From NCBI GenBank assembly GCA_001303225.1, contig LJNI01000010.1, forward strand, positions 6,990 through 30,272: a stretch of 23,283 bases of DNA, read 5' to 3'. Positions 7,051 through 18,624 of this stretch are shown here, in pieces; position 1 is the first letter of the stretch, and the number at the start of each line of letters is the position of its first letter. Both the position numbers and the translations under genes were made by a program. Origin of the DNA: a candidate division TA06 bacterium DG_78. GTDB lineage: Bacteria; Hydrothermota; Tepidihabitantia; SM23-42. The notes beneath the pieces were generated by a model. That model had not been told where the DNA came from and did no database searches. It saw only the letters and a list, made by a program, of their open reading frames with translations.

Positions 7051-7479
7051 ATGAAGGTTCTATATATAACCTTGAAAATTTTGCTCTTTGCGCTTGTTAT
7101 CTTCCTTATGAATCTCAATTCAGGGTGTACAGACCCTGATGAATATGCACCACCGCAGGATTCTCTCGTAGCACCACCAGCTCCGCCCCAACTCATCGTT
7201 CCAGCTGACAGCGAATTGTTTTCCCAAACGCCTGGTATTGCTATGAACATCTATTTTGAGTGGTCTCTTGTCGAAGATGCACAATACTATCAAATTCAAG
7301 TTGCAACAGATGTTGCATTCAATAATACTATATTCGATGAAAAGGTCTATGCACACTCAGCTACACTAACCTTTTATCAGCCCGGTGAATTTTTCTGGCG
7401 AGTAAGAGCTTACAGTCCTCTGTGGACGTGGTACACGAGTTGGTCAGAAATACGCTATTTCTGGTCAACGTCGGCTTAA
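7051..7479 (+). CDS. small secreted lipoprotein with a fibronectin-III-like domain
   Basis: A 142-residue probable lipoprotein. A hydrophobic signal segment (residues 3-20) leads to LNSGC with Cys26; position -3 is Asn rather than Leu, so the lipobox is imperfect. A Pro/Ala-rich linker follows, then one beta-sandwich-like domain (IYFEWSLVEDAQYYQIQVATDVAFN ... PGEFFWRVRAYSP ... WSEIRYFW), typical of FN3-like domains in exported FCB proteins. It is the first gene behind a consensus promoter and appears leaderless. The next gene begins six bases after its stop if the GTG start proposed there is right. Its relation to the ARPP-1 and kinase-helicase genes is unknown; sharing a transcript may be incidental. 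No enzymatic residues are evident. Confidence 0.75.
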   Translation: MKVLYITLKILLFALVIFLMNLNSGCTDPDEYAPPQDSLVAPPAPPQLIVPADSELFSQTPGIAMNIYFEWSLVEDAQYYQIQVATDVAFNNTIFDEKVYAHSATLTFYQPGEFFWRVRAYSPLWTWYTSWSEIRYFWSTSA

Positions 7480-7484
7480 AAAAC

Positions 7485-8345
7485 GTGTTCGAAAGTACCA
7501 AAGTTTCTGAACCAATCTTCTTACGTAACCTGACTATTCATCCCATCAGTGGAATTACTAAAAATGGATTCGATGCTTCAACGATCGATGAGGTACTAAT
7601 TTCTAACAAAGGAGTATTTCGAGAGTTCGATACACCAGATGTCAGTACTATAGAATTCGACAACCGAGGTGATGAACCTGTGCTAATCATCGATGGAGAG
7701 GAAATTACCGGGTCGTTACAAAATCGTATCATCGCTCTATCGAGTGTTGTCGATGCACGATCAACAAAAAGCATTCCAGTTATCTGTGCTGAAGAGGGAC
7801 GATGGGATGACCTGGGTGGATTCCAAACTGGTCACTGTGCCTATCCACAGATACGCACGATTCTTATGAAGAGTCTCCACAAAAAAATCGACACACAACG
7901 CGCTGTCTGGAATGAAATTAACCGGAAATTAACAGTATCAAAGATACTATCAACAACCTCGTCTATGCACGACATCTATCATAATCTCAACGAAGAAATT
8001 GCTCGGTATATTGAAGGATTCTCGAGCATCAATCATAGTGCAATCGGATTTATTGGAGTCGCGGGTAACCGTATTCTCGGTTGTGATATCTTTTGTAATA
8101 CAAAAATCTATCATAAGTTTGAAAACAAATTAATACGCAGCTACATCCTTGACGCAATCGAACATCAAAAAAAAGAACCCAATGTCCCTGATGTAAAAAA
8201 ATTCTTTACTGCTCTTCAATGTGCCCTGGCGAGAAAAAAAATAAGGAATAGGACTGCAAACGAGAAAATTAAAGGCAATGGTTTCCTCGGACAGGCACTC
8301 ATCTATAATAAAAGTTCTGTTCACCTATCGGTATTTCCCACCTAA
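7485..8345 (+). CDS. ARPP-1 (DUF6569) domain protein
   Basis: Matches, from memory of the family, the ARPP-1/DUF6569 domain. The diagnostic core here is VLIIDGEEITGSLQNR, then SIPVICAEEGRW, corresponding to the 'GEE(L)xGxxQNR...(I)PVSCVEQGRW' pattern of that family. The N terminus LRNLTIHPISG and the conserved Gly-Arg-Trp are intact. The family was named for association with ADP-ribosylglycohydrolase and phosphatase-type genes; its biochemistry is not established to my knowledge. I start at GTG 7485, five bases after the lipoprotein stop, because the longer frame from ATG 7422 would overlap the lipoprotein by 58 bases with residues that do not look like this family. The kinase-helicase begins six bases after its stop, which suggests a functional link. 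No signal peptide; cytoplasmic. Confidence 0.83.
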   Translation: MFESTKVSEPIFLRNLTIHPISGITKNGFDASTIDEVLISNKGVFREFDTPDVSTIEFDNRGDEPVLIIDGEEITGSLQNRIIALSSVVDARSTKSIPVICAEEGRWDDLGGFQTGHCAYPQIRTILMKSLHKKIDTQRAVWNEINRKLTVSKILSTTSSMHDIYHNLNEEIARYIEGFSSINHSAIGFIGVAGNRILGCDIFCNTKIYHKFENKLIRSYILDAIEHQKKEPNVPDVKKFFTALQCALARKKIRNRTANEKIKGNGFLGQALIYNKSSVHLSVFPT

Positions 8346-8351
8346 ACACTC

Positions 8352-10865
8352 GTGCTCCTGAAAAGACTCGGTAAGTACGAAATCATTAATTGGCTCGGTG
8401 GTGGAAGATTCGGCGACGTTTTCTTAGCCCGCGATACCATTTTAGATAAAGAATTTGCTCTCAAAATATCACGGATGAGGAAAGAAGAAATCAGCATGCT
8501 CAAAGACGAAGCCAAGCTCTTAGCATCTCTCGACCATCCCAATATTGTGAGATTCTATAATATTGACTTTATTGATAATAAGTTTGTATTAGTAATGGAA
8601 TATATTAAAGGAAAAATACTGCGGGATATTATAACAGAAGGCGGTATCGACATCGATGAAGCAGTAAACATAGCAACACAAATTCTCAATGCTGTATATT
8701 ATGCACACTCTCAACAGGTATTACATCGTGATTTAAAGCCTGAGAATATACTCATCACTACAAGAGAAGTTATAAAGGTAACTGACTTCGGTCTTGCCCG
8801 ATTCATTAAATCCAGCTCTATATCAGCATCAACTGCTGGCACGCCTATCTATATGGCGCCTGAGGCATGGTCAGGTAATTTTAATGAAAAATCGGATATT
8901 TGGAGTCTTGGCGTTATTTTCTATGAACTACTCACCGGTACACTACCTTTCTTAGATGATAGTCTCAATGGTCTTAAAAAGAAAATTGATAAAAATAATT
9001 TTCTTGTTCCGAGCATGCTGAGACCCAGTATTCCTGAATATATCGAAGATGTAGTTTTGAAAAGTCTGAATCGAGATTCTCGTGTGCGACCAGCTGCAAA
9101 TGAATTATTAGGTAGATTGAGTGAAAGAGGTAAAGAGATTAGAGTCAAACAAGGAATTAAAATTCCTGCAAAAGAAATCCAGACTATTAATTTCACGCCA
9201 ACACAGCAGGAGGTTATTGAATCACATAACGATACAGTACTGCTCCTCGGCCAAGCAGGTTGTGGTAAAACCACCACACTCACCTATGCTATTGCCCGCT
9301 TGCTCGAAAAAGGCATTCCAGTATCCAAAATTCTCATTTGTACATTCACCAATAAGGCTGCCAATGATATTAGATATCGATTGCAGAGATGTGCTCATTT
9401 TTCTCCTTATGAGTTGTGGCTCGGCACATTCCATACCTTGGGCTTGAGAATATTACGCCGCGATATTGAACGGATTGACATCAGCGAGGATTTCACCATA
9501 GATGAACCAAAAAATATCTTTAAAGAGATGAAAATAAAAACTGGGGAATACCGTAGTAACGCTGTCATTAAATTTATCGAAATCCTAAAAGCAAAAACAA
9601 TTACGCCTGAATGCTTTGATCCTAAAAATAAATGGGAATCGTATTGTTGTGAAATATACGAACAATATGAACAGTATAAAAAAGAAAATAGTATTTTAGA
9701 TTATGATGACTTGATTCTATATGCTATTGCATTGCTCGAGGAAAATCCCGATATACAAGAGTATTATAAAAATTTATTTGATTATATATTTGTTGACGAA
9801 CTTCAGGATATAAACCCAGCCCAGTATAAATTACTGTCTGTGCTCTATAAAAATCACATCTTCTTCACCGGCGATGAAGACCAGGCAATCTATGGCTGGC
9901 GTGGTGCTGATAAAGATTTAATCTACCGAGTTGCTAAAGATTATAAAGATGTGAAAATATTCTCGTTATCAACGGGTTTCCGTTTACCTCATGATATTTT
10001 AAAAATTGCTAATAATTTAATGAAGCGGGAACCAACAGCAATACCAGCTATGCATAATGGCGATATCATAGTGTACGCAGCAAAATCTGAACAGGATGAA
10101 GCTGATTATATTGTAAAAGAAATTAAACGTCTACGAAAGAATTCTTTTATGTTCCAAGATATTGCTCTGTTATATAGAATGAATTATATTTCGCGAGTAT
10201 ATGAGGATACATTAGCAAGAAACCGAATTCCCCATACCATTATCGGTGGTTCTTCGTTTTATGCGCGCACCGATATAAAACCACTCATTGAATACTTAGA
10301 ACTTCTCGAGGCGAGTCATACGATAAAAAAGGATGAGTTTATTGCAACGGCAATAGGATTATTTAAAATTAAAAAGAAAGAAAATGTACGAGCGCAAAAA
10401 ATATTCCAATACCACATTGAAAATGCTCATCTGCTATCTCCTGCAGTTATCATTAATGAAGTGACAGGAGTGACACATTTAAAAGGTGGAAATATTGAAG
10501 AGATGGAATCGTTAGCGCGCAGCTATGCTAACATTTCGCTATCACAATTTTTGAATGAAGTGAAATTGATCCAGGAATTGGATCTGATCGATTGGGGGAA
10601 AGATACAGTAAAGCTCATAACAATCCATAGCGCTAAAGGACTTGAATTCTCTGTTGTATTTATCGTCGACCTTGTCGAAAATATTTTTCCGATGACAAAA
10701 AAGATAGTATCGAAAAAAGATCTCGAAGAAGAACGAAGACTGTGCTATGTTGCACTCACTCGCTCACAGAAGAAATTATATCTCCTCTATCCAAAATGGC
10801 GCTATGGTCGGCACCAACAACCTTCACGATTTTTAGCTGATATGTTTAAGACATCATCTCTGTGA
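8352..10865 (+). CDS. Ser/Thr protein kinase fused to a UvrD-like SF1 helicase
   Basis: An 837-residue two-enzyme fusion starting at GTG. Residues ~6-265 form an apparently active Hanks-type kinase: glycine loop LGGGRFGDV, ATP-binding K38 (FALKIS), HRDLKPEN with D127, DFG at D145, MAPEAW and SDIWSLG. A short linker leads to an SF1A helicase with all core motifs: Q-like TPTQQEVI, Walker A GQAGCGKTT (300-308), CTFTNKAA, Walker B VDELQD (D482, E483), GDEDQAIYGWRGAD, STGFRLP, TIHSAKGLEF and VALTRS (R804). The helicase part is about 540 residues, shorter than UvrD or Rep, so the accessory subdomains are reduced. There is no transmembrane segment, PASTA or sensor domain, so signals must come from elsewhere. 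One continuous frame with no stop rules out two separate genes in this assembly. Substrates are unknown; a role in DNA repair or conflict signalling is inference. Confidence 0.93.
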   Translation: MLLKRLGKYEIINWLGGGRFGDVFLARDTILDKEFALKISRMRKEEISMLKDEAKLLASLDHPNIVRFYNIDFIDNKFVLVMEYIKGKILRDIITEGGIDIDEAVNIATQILNAVYYAHSQQVLHRDLKPENILITTREVIKVTDFGLARFIKSSSISASTAGTPIYMAPEAWSGNFNEKSDIWSLGVIFYELLTGTLPFLDDSLNGLKKKIDKNNFLVPSMLRPSIPEYIEDVVLKSLNRDSRVRPAANELLGRLSERGKEIRVKQGIKIPAKEIQTINFTPTQQEVIESHNDTVLLLGQAGCGKTTTLTYAIARLLEKGIPVSKILICTFTNKAANDIRYRLQRCAHFSPYELWLGTFHTLGLRILRRDIERIDISEDFTIDEPKNIFKEMKIKTGEYRSNAVIKFIEILKAKTITPECFDPKNKWESYCCEIYEQYEQYKKENSILDYDDLILYAIALLEENPDIQEYYKNLFDYIFVDELQDINPAQYKLLSVLYKNHIFFTGDEDQAIYGWRGADKDLIYRVAKDYKDVKIFSLSTGFRLPHDILKIANNLMKREPTAIPAMHNGDIIVYAAKSEQDEADYIVKEIKRLRKNSFMFQDIALLYRMNYISRVYEDTLARNRIPHTIIGGSSFYARTDIKPLIEYLELLEASHTIKKDEFIATAIGLFKIKKKENVRAQKIFQYHIENAHLLSPAVIINEVTGVTHLKGGNIEEMESLARSYANISLSQFLNEVKLIQELDLIDWGKDTVKLITIHSAKGLEFSVVFIVDLVENIFPMTKKIVSKKDLEEERRLCYVALTRSQKKLYLLYPKWRYGRHQQPSRFLADMFKTSSL

Positions 10866-11534: not shown

Positions 11535-13253
11535 CTATAGCCGCACATCAATTTGACATCCAATTTGTGTTGCTGTATCAGAATCTTTATGCACAAGTGA
11601 ATATTTGAATGTCGTAGTAATTATTTCTATTGGCTTGATACCAAGATGGATAAAGCCATAATAGCCATCATTGTAGAGCATACGGTTATTTATAATGCCT
11701 GGCAAATCGACCTCATAAACATAAATTCTGGAGGCGTAAGAATCTGTATTGAACAAACCATATCTCACTCTTAATCGCATATTTTTTAGCAGTAGGCCTG
11801 CCTCAATGGCACCGAAAATTCCTCTGTCTAATTCGTTTGAATCATATACATGCTTTTCTTCTAACCTCAGATCAAAAAAAATGGCTTTTATTGGTGTAAT
11901 ACGAAGAAAAACTCGTGCACCCGACAAATCCATCGTTTCTCTGGTAAATCGCCACCGTATCTGAAACTTGGTATTGAGAACACCATAACTCTTTTCGAGG
12001 TTAACACGTAACCCATACTTCGCAGAATCTGTTTCAACCATATTATCAAAGGTTACTGTCGTCCCAAGATTGATTAATTTGGAATGATGACTGATATCTA
12101 AGGTGCCACCAAAATAATTATCATCTGCCTCTACCCCCTTTGGCGAACAGAAGCCGAGAGGAAAATATTTCCCCGCGAGGTTGAAATCAAAATAGGGAAA
12201 GAAACCACTAAATCCAAAAAGTCCCCCACTATGGTTATTAAAAGAACGCGCCCACTCCGAGAACACGACAAACTGATCACCGTAGTAATTCAATCCGATT
12301 GCAGAAATCCAGAATTTATCGCCGTAGAATTGGGCAAAAGAATCGTCACACACAAATTCAGGACTGTAGACACACCTGTATGATCGGTTTGAAATCAATA
12401 GATTTGAGAAACGATACCGCAGGTCATAACCCATAATTTCCTCATTAATTCTATCCTTTCGACTCAGTGATGAAGAATCGGTATGCTTCCCCGATTCATA
12501 GAATGAACGAGCAAAGCCGAGAGAATCTATCCTGCCATCAAGTTTCTGGTTTGAATAAAAAACAGTGTACTTCACAAAAAATGAATCAGAAAATGCAGCA
12601 CCAAAAAAGCCACTATTTTCCAAACTCGATGTATACGGTAATATACCACGTTCGTTCATCATAACGCGAAAATCTGTTGTAGTGAAAAAAGAACCAATCG
12701 GTGAGAGCACTACCCCTGTGCCCAAATCTAAATTATATTTTCCAAAGGCAAATTCCCAGTTCCTATCATTAATTATAACACCTGCCGAGTAATAATCAAA
12801 AAAAGAACTTTCATGGGGATCCTTTTCCGTAACGAGGAAAATATTATAGTGGTTTAAAATACATTGTGATTTTGTGTAGTAGCCTTCTGAGTTCTGTTCA
12901 TGAGGCATCTGTGTCATCACACGCATTCTTGTGGTTAATTTCTCAAAACTGAATGGTTTTGCCTCGATTGTTACAAATGGTTTTATGTTTTCGAAAATAA
13001 CTCTATCAATTCCCGGGATATTCACTAGCTCATTGATGGTACTAAAAGGACGGTGTTCAATGATTTTCAAACAATGTACCGGCAAGAGGTAAGGAATTTT
13101 CGCCAAGTCCTCAAAGTGAGCAGTATTTATATCAATTGGGTTCTTGGTTAAATTTTCAATATCATCGATAATAATCTCGAAATCTCTCTCCTCTTCGGTT
13201 TCGAATATCGTAGCATCACTAACTAAGCATATACAGCACAAGAGTAAAATCAT
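11535..13253 (-). CDS. HhH-domain protein with predicted outer-membrane beta-barrel
   Basis: A 572-residue exported protein. A short hydrophobic start (MILLLCCICLVSDA) is the likely signal peptide. Residues about 38-95 are a tandem helix-hairpin-helix pair of ComEA type: PIDINTAHFEDLAKIPYL, then FSTINELVNIPGIDRVIFENI. The remaining ~450 residues are rich in alternating aromatic/polar strands (for example WEFAFGKYNLDLGTG and MRLRVRYGLFNTDSY) and end in IGCQIDVRL, as expected of a barrel. HhH-barrel proteins of this design occur in FCB bacteria, and their role is not established to my knowledge. The ATG overlaps the stop of the upstream barrel gene (ATGA), so the two are translationally coupled and may act together. 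HhH motifs often bind DNA, but here they could be protein-binding. Confidence 0.78.
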   Translation of the reverse strand: MILLLCCICLVSDATIFETEEERDFEIIIDDIENLTKNPIDINTAHFEDLAKIPYLLPVHCLKIIEHRPFSTINELVNIPGIDRVIFENIKPFVTIEAKPFSFEKLTTRMRVMTQMPHEQNSEGYYTKSQCILNHYNIFLVTEKDPHESSFFDYYSAGVIINDRNWEFAFGKYNLDLGTGVVLSPIGSFFTTTDFRVMMNERGILPYTSSLENSGFFGAAFSDSFFVKYTVFYSNQKLDGRIDSLGFARSFYESGKHTDSSSLSRKDRINEEIMGYDLRYRFSNLLISNRSYRCVYSPEFVCDDSFAQFYGDKFWISAIGLNYYGDQFVVFSEWARSFNNHSGGLFGFSGFFPYFDFNLAGKYFPLGFCSPKGVEADDNYFGGTLDISHHSKLINLGTTVTFDNMVETDSAKYGLRVNLEKSYGVLNTKFQIRWRFTRETMDLSGARVFLRITPIKAIFFDLRLEEKHVYDSNELDRGIFGAIEAGLLLKNMRLRVRYGLFNTDSYASRIYVYEVDLPGIINNRMLYNDGYYGFIHLGIKPIEIITTTFKYSLVHKDSDTATQIGCQIDVRL

Positions 13254-17565: not shown

Positions 17566-18624
17566 CTATATGGATGAAAGCCTTTTGAGAGCTTGCAATT
17601 TATCACTATTGCCTAGTTTCGTTCTATTAATTGCCGATTTTAAAAAGGTAATCGATTGATTATAGGTATCACGGTTAACAGGATACGGAAATCCATCCTT
17701 ACCACCATGGGCAAATGAATATCGTGCCGGGTCCTCGAATGAGGGCGTTGCACCGTGGAGTAATTCACCAATGAGTGCTAATGCCCTGATTGTCTTTGGC
17801 CCAACACCATTAACACCAATTAATGTTTGAAAATCTTCTGCCGATCGCTCGTACGTTTTCAAGAGAACCCTGTGAAAGTATCGTGGGTTGATATCAAATC
17901 GCAAGACTGGATGGCGAGCTGGCATATTTAAAATTCTCTTGGCTTCTTTTATTACCTTATCAGGTTTTTCTCGTGACAGTTCAGTAACAATTGTACGAGA
18001 GGTTTCACTCTCAGACGCAACCATATTTAATGAAGGGTGTCTGTCATCACAACATACTGCCGTGTGAGGTTCACAAATATACGATTGTAAACGCGATGAG
18101 AGCCAATGGTATCTCCGGGCAAAACGATTTTCTGTATTCATCCCCTGCTGGATAACACTCCAATCGCCTTCTTTTGTAAAAATAAACACATGGTGGTAAA
18201 GATTGTAGCCATCTTGAACACAGGTATTATCAACCTTCGCTGAAATTCGTGACGAATAGATCAAGTGTTCCGAATCGATTGACAGACGTTCTGATTGTTT
18301 CGCAATCTCCTGTGGTGTTTTTCTCGATGTTGCTCCTTTGCCGCCACAAATATAAAGACCCAAATCCTTTGAAATATTTTTAATTCCTTCCTTCATGGCA
18401 CCACAAACTGTGGTTGTCACACCAGATGAGTGCCAATCAAATCCTAAGACAGCACCACATGCCTGGAACCAAAAAGGATCAGAAATTCGACACAGAAATT
18501 CCTTTCTACCCTTTGCAATAACAATCGCCTCAATAAGTGCGGCTGAAAGCTTAACCATTTTTTCAAACAACCAACGCGGCGCTCGGCCGTGGTGAAGTGG
18601 TAGGTTCGCAATTCCTGTTCTCAT
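17566..18624 (-). CDS. DUF763 domain protein
   Basis: A 352-residue protein whose N terminus, MRTGIANLPLHHGRAPRWLFEKM, is the hallmark of the DUF763 family, found in archaea and in scattered, often thermophilic, bacteria. Other family-like stretches are DPFWFQACGAVLGFDWHSSGVTTT, GKGATSRKTPQEI, HHVFIFTKEGDW and RHPVLRFDINPRYF. Near 265-290, FQTLIGVNGVGPKTIRALALIGELL looks like an HhH element as in DNA glycosylases and nucleases, so a nucleic-acid role is plausible but unproven. No signal peptide. It follows apt on the same strand, separated by a 146-bp palindromic element. The ATG has no clear ribosome site. Confidence 0.9.
   Translation of the reverse strand: MRTGIANLPLHHGRAPRWLFEKMVKLSAALIEAIVIAKGRKEFLCRISDPFWFQACGAVLGFDWHSSGVTTTVCGAMKEGIKNISKDLGLYICGGKGATSRKTPQEIAKQSERLSIDSEHLIYSSRISAKVDNTCVQDGYNLYHHVFIFTKEGDWSVIQQGMNTENRFARRYHWLSSRLQSYICEPHTAVCCDDRHPSLNMVASESETSRTIVTELSREKPDKVIKEAKRILNMPARHPVLRFDINPRYFHRVLLKTYERSAEDFQTLIGVNGVGPKTIRALALIGELLHGATPSFEDPARYSFAHGGKDGFPYPVNRDTYNQSITFLKSAINRTKLGNSDKLQALKRLSSI

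Follow-up and report, generated by a model that had tools for sequence, protein, structure and literature searches.

A single gene in the window (the whole 23,283-nt stretch of DNA analysed) encodes a Hanks-type Ser/Thr kinase fused to a UvrD/PcrA-type SF1A helicase, and the same fusion recurs in other genomes of the window's phylum, where a gene of the ARPP-1 family is its near-constant partner (Table 1). Neither half of the fusion is new in kind; the novelty lies in their combination and in the two-gene cassette. The best explanation, which is put forward tentatively, is that ARPP-1 and a DNA-engaged motor-kinase act together as such a cassette.

Table 1. Positions in the window of the kinase-UvrD fusion, its parts and its partner gene (residue numbers are those of the encoded proteins)
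Feature	Positions	Strand	Remarks
ARPP-1 without signal-peptide-like start (DUF6569, PF20208)	7485..8345	+	286 aa, GTG start; ends 6 nt before the fusion gene
Kinase-UvrD fusion gene	8352..10865	+	837 aa, GTG start
Hanks-type Ser/Thr kinase domain, residues 9–253	8376..9110	+	K38, HRD D127 and DFG D145 intact
Flexible tether, residues 254–281	9111..9194	+	near-fixed length, variable sequence
SF1A UvrD/PcrA-type helicase, residues 282–837	9195..10862	+	core motif residues intact; no PcrA-type C-terminal tail
Shortened 2B region, R609 to H759, 150 residues	10176..10628	+	PcrA median 202

The fusion gene is one uninterrupted frame with no internal stops and with the Pfam domains in place, in agreement with a preliminary description of this DNA, which had read it as a single 837-codon frame joining a kinase to a helicase. 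Pkinase (PF00069) matches residues 9–253 with 196 bits and UvrD-helicase (PF00580) residues 282–532 with 214 bits, while UvrD_C (PF13361) scores 155.6 bits with its best stretch at residues 725–813. The UvrD/PcrA-type SF1A motor domains as a whole occupy residues 282–832. An AlphaFold model of the full chain displays two mostly confident bodies (mean pLDDT 83.7) separated by residues 260–278 with pLDDT below 50; the tether is predicted to be disordered, and the placement of the kinase relative to the helicase is uncertain (pTM 0.59). The top PDB structural matches of the helicase half are UvrD (2is6) and PcrA (1pjr), with 28–31% identity, and PknB kinases are among the matches of the kinase half. 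No further sensor domain is recognised by Pfam or in the AlphaFold model, which bears out the earlier remark that the protein carries no ligand-sensing domain.

Both enzymes, which had looked intact in the window sequence, keep their key residues throughout the family. In an alignment of 41 members (the window and 40 other loci, with identities down to 31%), K38, H125, D127, D145, F146, G147, the Walker A residues G305, K306 and T307, D482, E483, Q511, R517 and R544 are invariant, and R804 is kept in all 39 members long enough to include it. With a Pkinase domain and K38, D127 and D145 in 41 of 41 members, the N-terminal half is a Hanks-type Ser/Thr kinase; the C-terminal half, with UvrD N and C domains and the core motif residues, is a UvrD-type SF1A helicase. 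The dN/dS values are 0.04–0.18 for the kinase and helicase halves (eight pairs, some sharing a member, with one kinase value saturated), and purifying selection acts on both halves. The linker (27–30 codons) has a higher dN than both domains in all eight pairs. The preliminary description had proposed looking for the same linker in homologues, and the distance from R246 to Q285 is indeed 36–46 residues in all 41 members, most commonly 39. This near-constant spacing, together with the raised linker dN, indicates that the length of the tether is maintained and not its sequence. The Ser/Thr residues of the activation loop are variable and are missing in P0132 (source name Thermosulfidibacteraceae), which forms a long branch in the tree.

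Matches that span kinase and helicase (query start ≤10 and end ≥400 in a protein search of the 147 genomes of the window's phylum) occur in 63 genomes, with some copies ending at contig breaks. A profile search of the same phylum at E 1e-170 shows the fusion in 61 of 147 genomes, and partial copies in G060 and G130 fall below this threshold. The relatives carry the database name candidate division WOR-3. An architecture search, also proposed beforehand, gave PF00069 and PF00580 together in 119 of the 120 relatives listed, of 384 found, the 120 including the query and one identical copy; the exception is P0117. Spanning matches in so many genomes and both domains in nearly all listed relatives exclude chance or assembly error in practice, and an assembly or annotation artefact is ruled out because orthologues from many genomes agree in linker length. 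Thus an assembly error at the linker, which the preliminary description had considered, does not account for the fusion. Its other reservation, homologues consistently encoded as two separate genes, is not borne out: the 63 genomes carry the fused form, no split pairs were noticed in passing, and plain PcrA lies in another tree group. The fusion is found in 21 of the 23 genomes of the window's family and in 4 of 4 of the sister family, and of the two genomes of the window's family without it, G092 retains a C-terminal fragment next to the end of a contig. The spanning fusion is absent from 84 of the 147 phylum genomes, whole families among these. A profile match to the fusion at G028:C62:44-2005 contains three stops, and this gene may be decayed or misassembled.

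In a quick tree, made without bootstrap, of 43 fusion helicases and 43 PcrA sequences (19 of the latter from the window's phylum), the fusions all fall on one side of a branch with an SH-aLRT of 100. A second tree of 81 rows, equally quick and without bootstrap, from which 12 similar rows were dropped and to which six Acidobacteriota fusions and the protein L301 were added, again places the 41 fusions together on one side (100) and L301 on the other, with PcrA. The plain PcrA genes of the phylum form a tree group separate from the fusion helicases, and a separate PcrA-like gene is found in at least 46 of the 63 fusion genomes. The fusion as the cell's only UvrD was considered and is rejected for the family on this count. 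In the window's own genome (G000, 79.5% complete) PF00580 matches twice, once in the fusion and once in a 1018-aa frame; the incomplete assembly may be the cause of the absence of a separate PcrA there. The retained PcrA-like gene also speaks against a reading in which the fusion serves as an ordinary repair helicase, with the kinase half as evolutionary passenger. A fusion could in principle carry a kinase along, but the kinase residues are invariant and the kinase dN/dS is as low as that of the helicase, and this explanation is very improbable.

The fusion helicases differ in anatomy from PcrA. The stretch from R609 of motif IV to H759, which holds subdomain 2B, has 150–189 residues in eight fusions versus 189–226 (median 202) in the 43 PcrA sequences. 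Over the whole fusion set the window's clade and some further members have 150–159 residues and distant members up to 191, which overlaps PcrA, and 2B is therefore clearly short only in the window's clade. The tail after F827 has 8–11 residues in the eight fusions and at most 19 in the set, versus a PcrA median of 83, some PcrA sequences being truncated. The PcrA/UvrD C-terminus is reported to bind RNA polymerase (PMC3797733, PMC7585439). Since the PcrA-type C-terminal tail is absent, the fusion motor is probably no longer linked to RNA polymerase.

These differences are the basis of the main rival explanation, in which the kinase regulates its own motor by auto- or trans-phosphorylation that replaces part of the 2B control, with ARPP-1 as a modulating cofactor. 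Subdomain 2B restrains Rep, UvrD and PcrA. Both the short 2B and the short tail of the eight fusions would fit such control, and PcrA/UvrD are listed in PMC4754617 as phosphorylated in other bacteria. However, marked shortening of 2B is confined to the window's clade (150–156) while distant members reach 191, no conserved phospho-acceptor was identified in the helicase, and regulation of the motor alone does not explain the near-constant ARPP-1 partner. Regulation of its own motor by the kinase is possible and somewhat doubtful.

The partner gene encodes a full-length member of the ARPP-1/DUF6569 family, with 200 bits to PF20208 (gathering score 27) over profile positions 3–297 of 297. ARPP-1 is the sole widely recurring neighbour family of the fusion, being found at 31 of 41 loci in nine lineage families, and the next family is found at five loci in four families (counting ORFs of at least 90 aa up to six places from the fusion). 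At 29 of the 31 loci the two genes are −40 to +321 nt apart. At L066 and L069 ARPP-1 lies downstream of the fusion, the reverse of the usual order. At L039 and L040 the gap is about 0.7 kb and holds an ORF of 214–235 aa. Directly upstream of ARPP-1 in the window is a 142-aa gene (7051–7479) with a lipoprotein-like start, judged by eye, and no Pfam match; several relatives have ORFs of about 138–152 aa at this position, compared by length only.

PF20208 is found in 81 of the 147 phylum genomes and occurs as two kinds. In an ARPP-1 tree of 72 rows (70 different), 22 rows with signal-peptide-like starts, as judged by eye, form a group with support 99/99 apart from the rest; the fusion-linked kind lies outside this secreted-looking group, and a second tree agrees on the two kinds, weakly at the root. 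Scoring with two profiles misassigned none of the profile-building rows, placed all 17 further loci fetched in the cytoplasmic kind, and assigned L260, which is in neither profile-building set, to the secreted kind, matching the tree. The window's genome carries a second ARPP-1 (L233, G000:C158:18466-19320), which has a signal-peptide-like start.

Cytoplasmic ARPP-1 is present in 60 of the 63 fusion genomes versus 5 of the 84 others (Fisher p 2.8e-31, a test that counts related genomes as independent, with no phylogenetic correction). It lies beside the fusion in 37 genomes, six of these adjacencies being judged from match coordinates, and elsewhere in the assembly in 23, among which contig breaks may hide some adjacency; the copy in G020 is a fragment. 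None was found in G017, G048 and G050 (80, 98 and 94% complete), where the fusion is present. The five genomes with cytoplasmic ARPP-1 and no spanning match are G021, G047, G092, which has the fusion fragment, and G034 and G035, whose strongly diverged ARPP-1 copies get low scores from both profiles. The preliminary description had named ARPP-1 as partner and possible sensor; these counts support it as the recurrent partner.

The residues P20, G71, G76, Q79, R81, V99, C101, E103, R106, W107, R124, Q138, W142, G188 and Y220 form a core found in 52 rows of the cytoplasmic and 21 of the secreted-looking kind, after omission of six rows. This shared core suggests that both kinds have one activity, which may be under kinase control only in the cytoplasmic kind. 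As the core is shared with secreted-looking paralogues, which form a group of their own and occur also in genomes that lack the fusion, ARPP-1 is not necessarily a substrate of the kinase. A Ser/Thr cluster of ARPP-1, S156–S160, was considered as a kinase site and set aside, a cluster that differs between fusion partners and occurs in part in the secreted-looking paralogues too. Sequence comparison with the PDB gave no close relative of ARPP-1, and no fold matched it clearly.

Outside the phylum, samples of genomes were searched at E 1e-170, with four candidates scored per genome. In the phylum of an Acidobacteriota record 4 of 199 genomes match, consisting of three members of the fusion family and L301. 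The class of one Acidobacteriota fusion genome gave matches in 7 of 142 genomes, and in all seven ARPP-1 is directly upstream of the fusion with a 4-nt overlap. No match was found in the samples from the phyla of a Nitrospirae record (0/198), a Stygiobacter record (0/198), a Deltaproteobacteria record (0/188) and a Spirochaetes record (0/198). In the PcrA-rooted tree the Acidobacteriota fusions group with the WOR-3 families f28 and f29 and with P0132, inside WOR-3 diversity, with support of 90–92. The Acidobacteriota ARPP-1 and fusion genes each nest inside their respective WOR-3 groups, with different sister families and modest support. We read these tree positions as transfer of the ARPP-1/fusion pair between phyla; the discordance between the trees leaves room for an older common origin of the pair with losses. 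The protein L301 (L301:6391-9279, in G633) is another kinase-UvrD fusion, of 962 aa, outside the main group. Its place on the PcrA side of the tree points to an apparently separate origin, and the sole ARPP-1 match in G633 sits on a contig other than that of L301.

The two halves also resemble components of defence systems, and the preliminary description had pointed to conflict systems in which kinases and helicases occur as separate genes. In anti-phage defence the helicase would detect foreign DNA and the kinase or ARPP-1 would be the toxic arm. Profiles of UvrD-like helicases or kinases from Gabija (GajB), BREX (PglW) and MADS (MAD6) match one half of the fusion, and in PADLOC the GajB, mad6 and PD-T4-6 profiles match the two halves; the related pairs in a second phylum would be compatible with defence as well. 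GajB, PglW and MAD6, however, are separate genes of multi-gene defence systems, and hits to such PADLOC profiles are likely to be common among UvrD helicases and Hanks kinases. The fusion scores 98 bits against a cut-off of 990 for PglW (NF033442) and 185.8 bits against 460 for MAD6 (NF047741), and no GajA is found among the 10 other proteins of this window, both direct neighbours included (PADLOC, E 1e-10). Just one of these 10 proteins has a PADLOC match. This is the product of 1154–2233, which we take to be DprA-like and which has 218.6 bits to the ShosA model; the gene is probably an ordinary DprA. Several other neighbours are presumably metK-, ahcY- and miaA-like from their translations, and the fusion's neighbours are read as ordinary genes. 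The window also holds a 572-aa protein (11535–13253) with an N-terminal helix-hairpin-helix (HHH_3) followed by a long part with no Pfam match over the cut-off, and a full-length DUF763 protein (17566–18624, 443.6 bits).

In searches for mobile carriers, 80% query cover by tblastn is reached in none of 372 matched plasmid records and none of 132 matched phage records, and none of the best 80 of 168 relatives on viral contigs matches both halves. On the viral contig L232 the match reached residue 325, and the frame there is a 444-aa kinase without the helicase part. In a profile search of genome contigs the best 80 of 548 relatives start at residue 230 or later and none covers the kinase, but this search undersamples, as the L132 genome from its list holds the fusion (1 of 18 genomes checked). 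The fusion is near-universal in its family, the named defence models are missed and the neighbours look ordinary, so that defence is the less likely reading and in our judgement an unlikely one; a link to conflict systems is not supported here.

Comparison with housekeeping and signalling proteins gives likeness in parts. The core motifs resemble those of the PcrA/UvrD/Rep SF1A helicases, but the fusion differs by its N-terminal kinase, the shorter 2B of the window's clade, the missing PcrA-type tail and its separate tree group, and it falls short of the NCBIfam equivalogs for PcrA (TIGR01073, 404 bits versus 911) and UvrD (327 versus 1144). Kinase fold and catalytic residues resemble those of the PknB/Stk1-type Hanks kinases, but the fusion has no PASTA part, its partner domain is a DNA motor, and it scores 228.9 bits against a cut-off of 450 for the PknB PASTA kinase (NF033483).

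The cassette reading is favoured, with a motor that would recruit and gate the kinase at exposed DNA, because the motor and kinase residues are present and no other sensor domain is recognised. Judging from its intact motifs, the SF1A half would load on exposed ssDNA and hydrolyse ATP there. When the motor loads or stalls, the tethered kinase would come close to proteins that are bound to the DNA or recruited alongside, and a small number of targets, ARPP-1 the likeliest of these, would be phosphorylated more. As effector or regulator, ARPP-1 would then change its activity, and the signal would run from DNA to the kinase. YabT is described in PMC4754617 as an ssDNA-dependent Ser/Thr kinase that phosphorylates RecA. 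The logic proposed for the fusion would be analogous, with DNA contact driving a Ser/Thr kinase, but DNA would be bound by an ATP-driven SF1A motor; the cassette would act like YabT with a DNA motor of its own. The association of cytoplasmic ARPP-1 with the fusion is seen in two phyla and with ARPP-1 on either side of the fusion. A more far-reaching proposal, to be regarded as speculative, is a one-chain checkpoint kinase in which the motor would read replication or DNA-damage stress through ssDNA and drive the kinase, with ARPP-1 as dedicated enzymatic effector, the whole being a portable cassette fused once and passed between phyla.

The family sequences are public under names such as UvrD-helicase domain-containing protein, and a literature search, mainly of titles and the beginnings of abstracts, found no description of the kinase-UvrD fusion family or of its link to ARPP-1 among the papers listed; one listed paper that contains the string ARPP-1 concerns neurotrophins. 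To our knowledge, a response to DNA has been described for few bacterial Ser/Thr kinases. Because a possible sensor-motor and a kinase share one polypeptide here, purifying that one protein would be enough to assay DNA binding, ATPase and kinase activity. The fusion and its near-constant partner suggest a compact device that converts an encounter with exposed DNA into phosphorylation signalling, and the recurrent fusion partner is a first functional handle on the ARPP-1 family.
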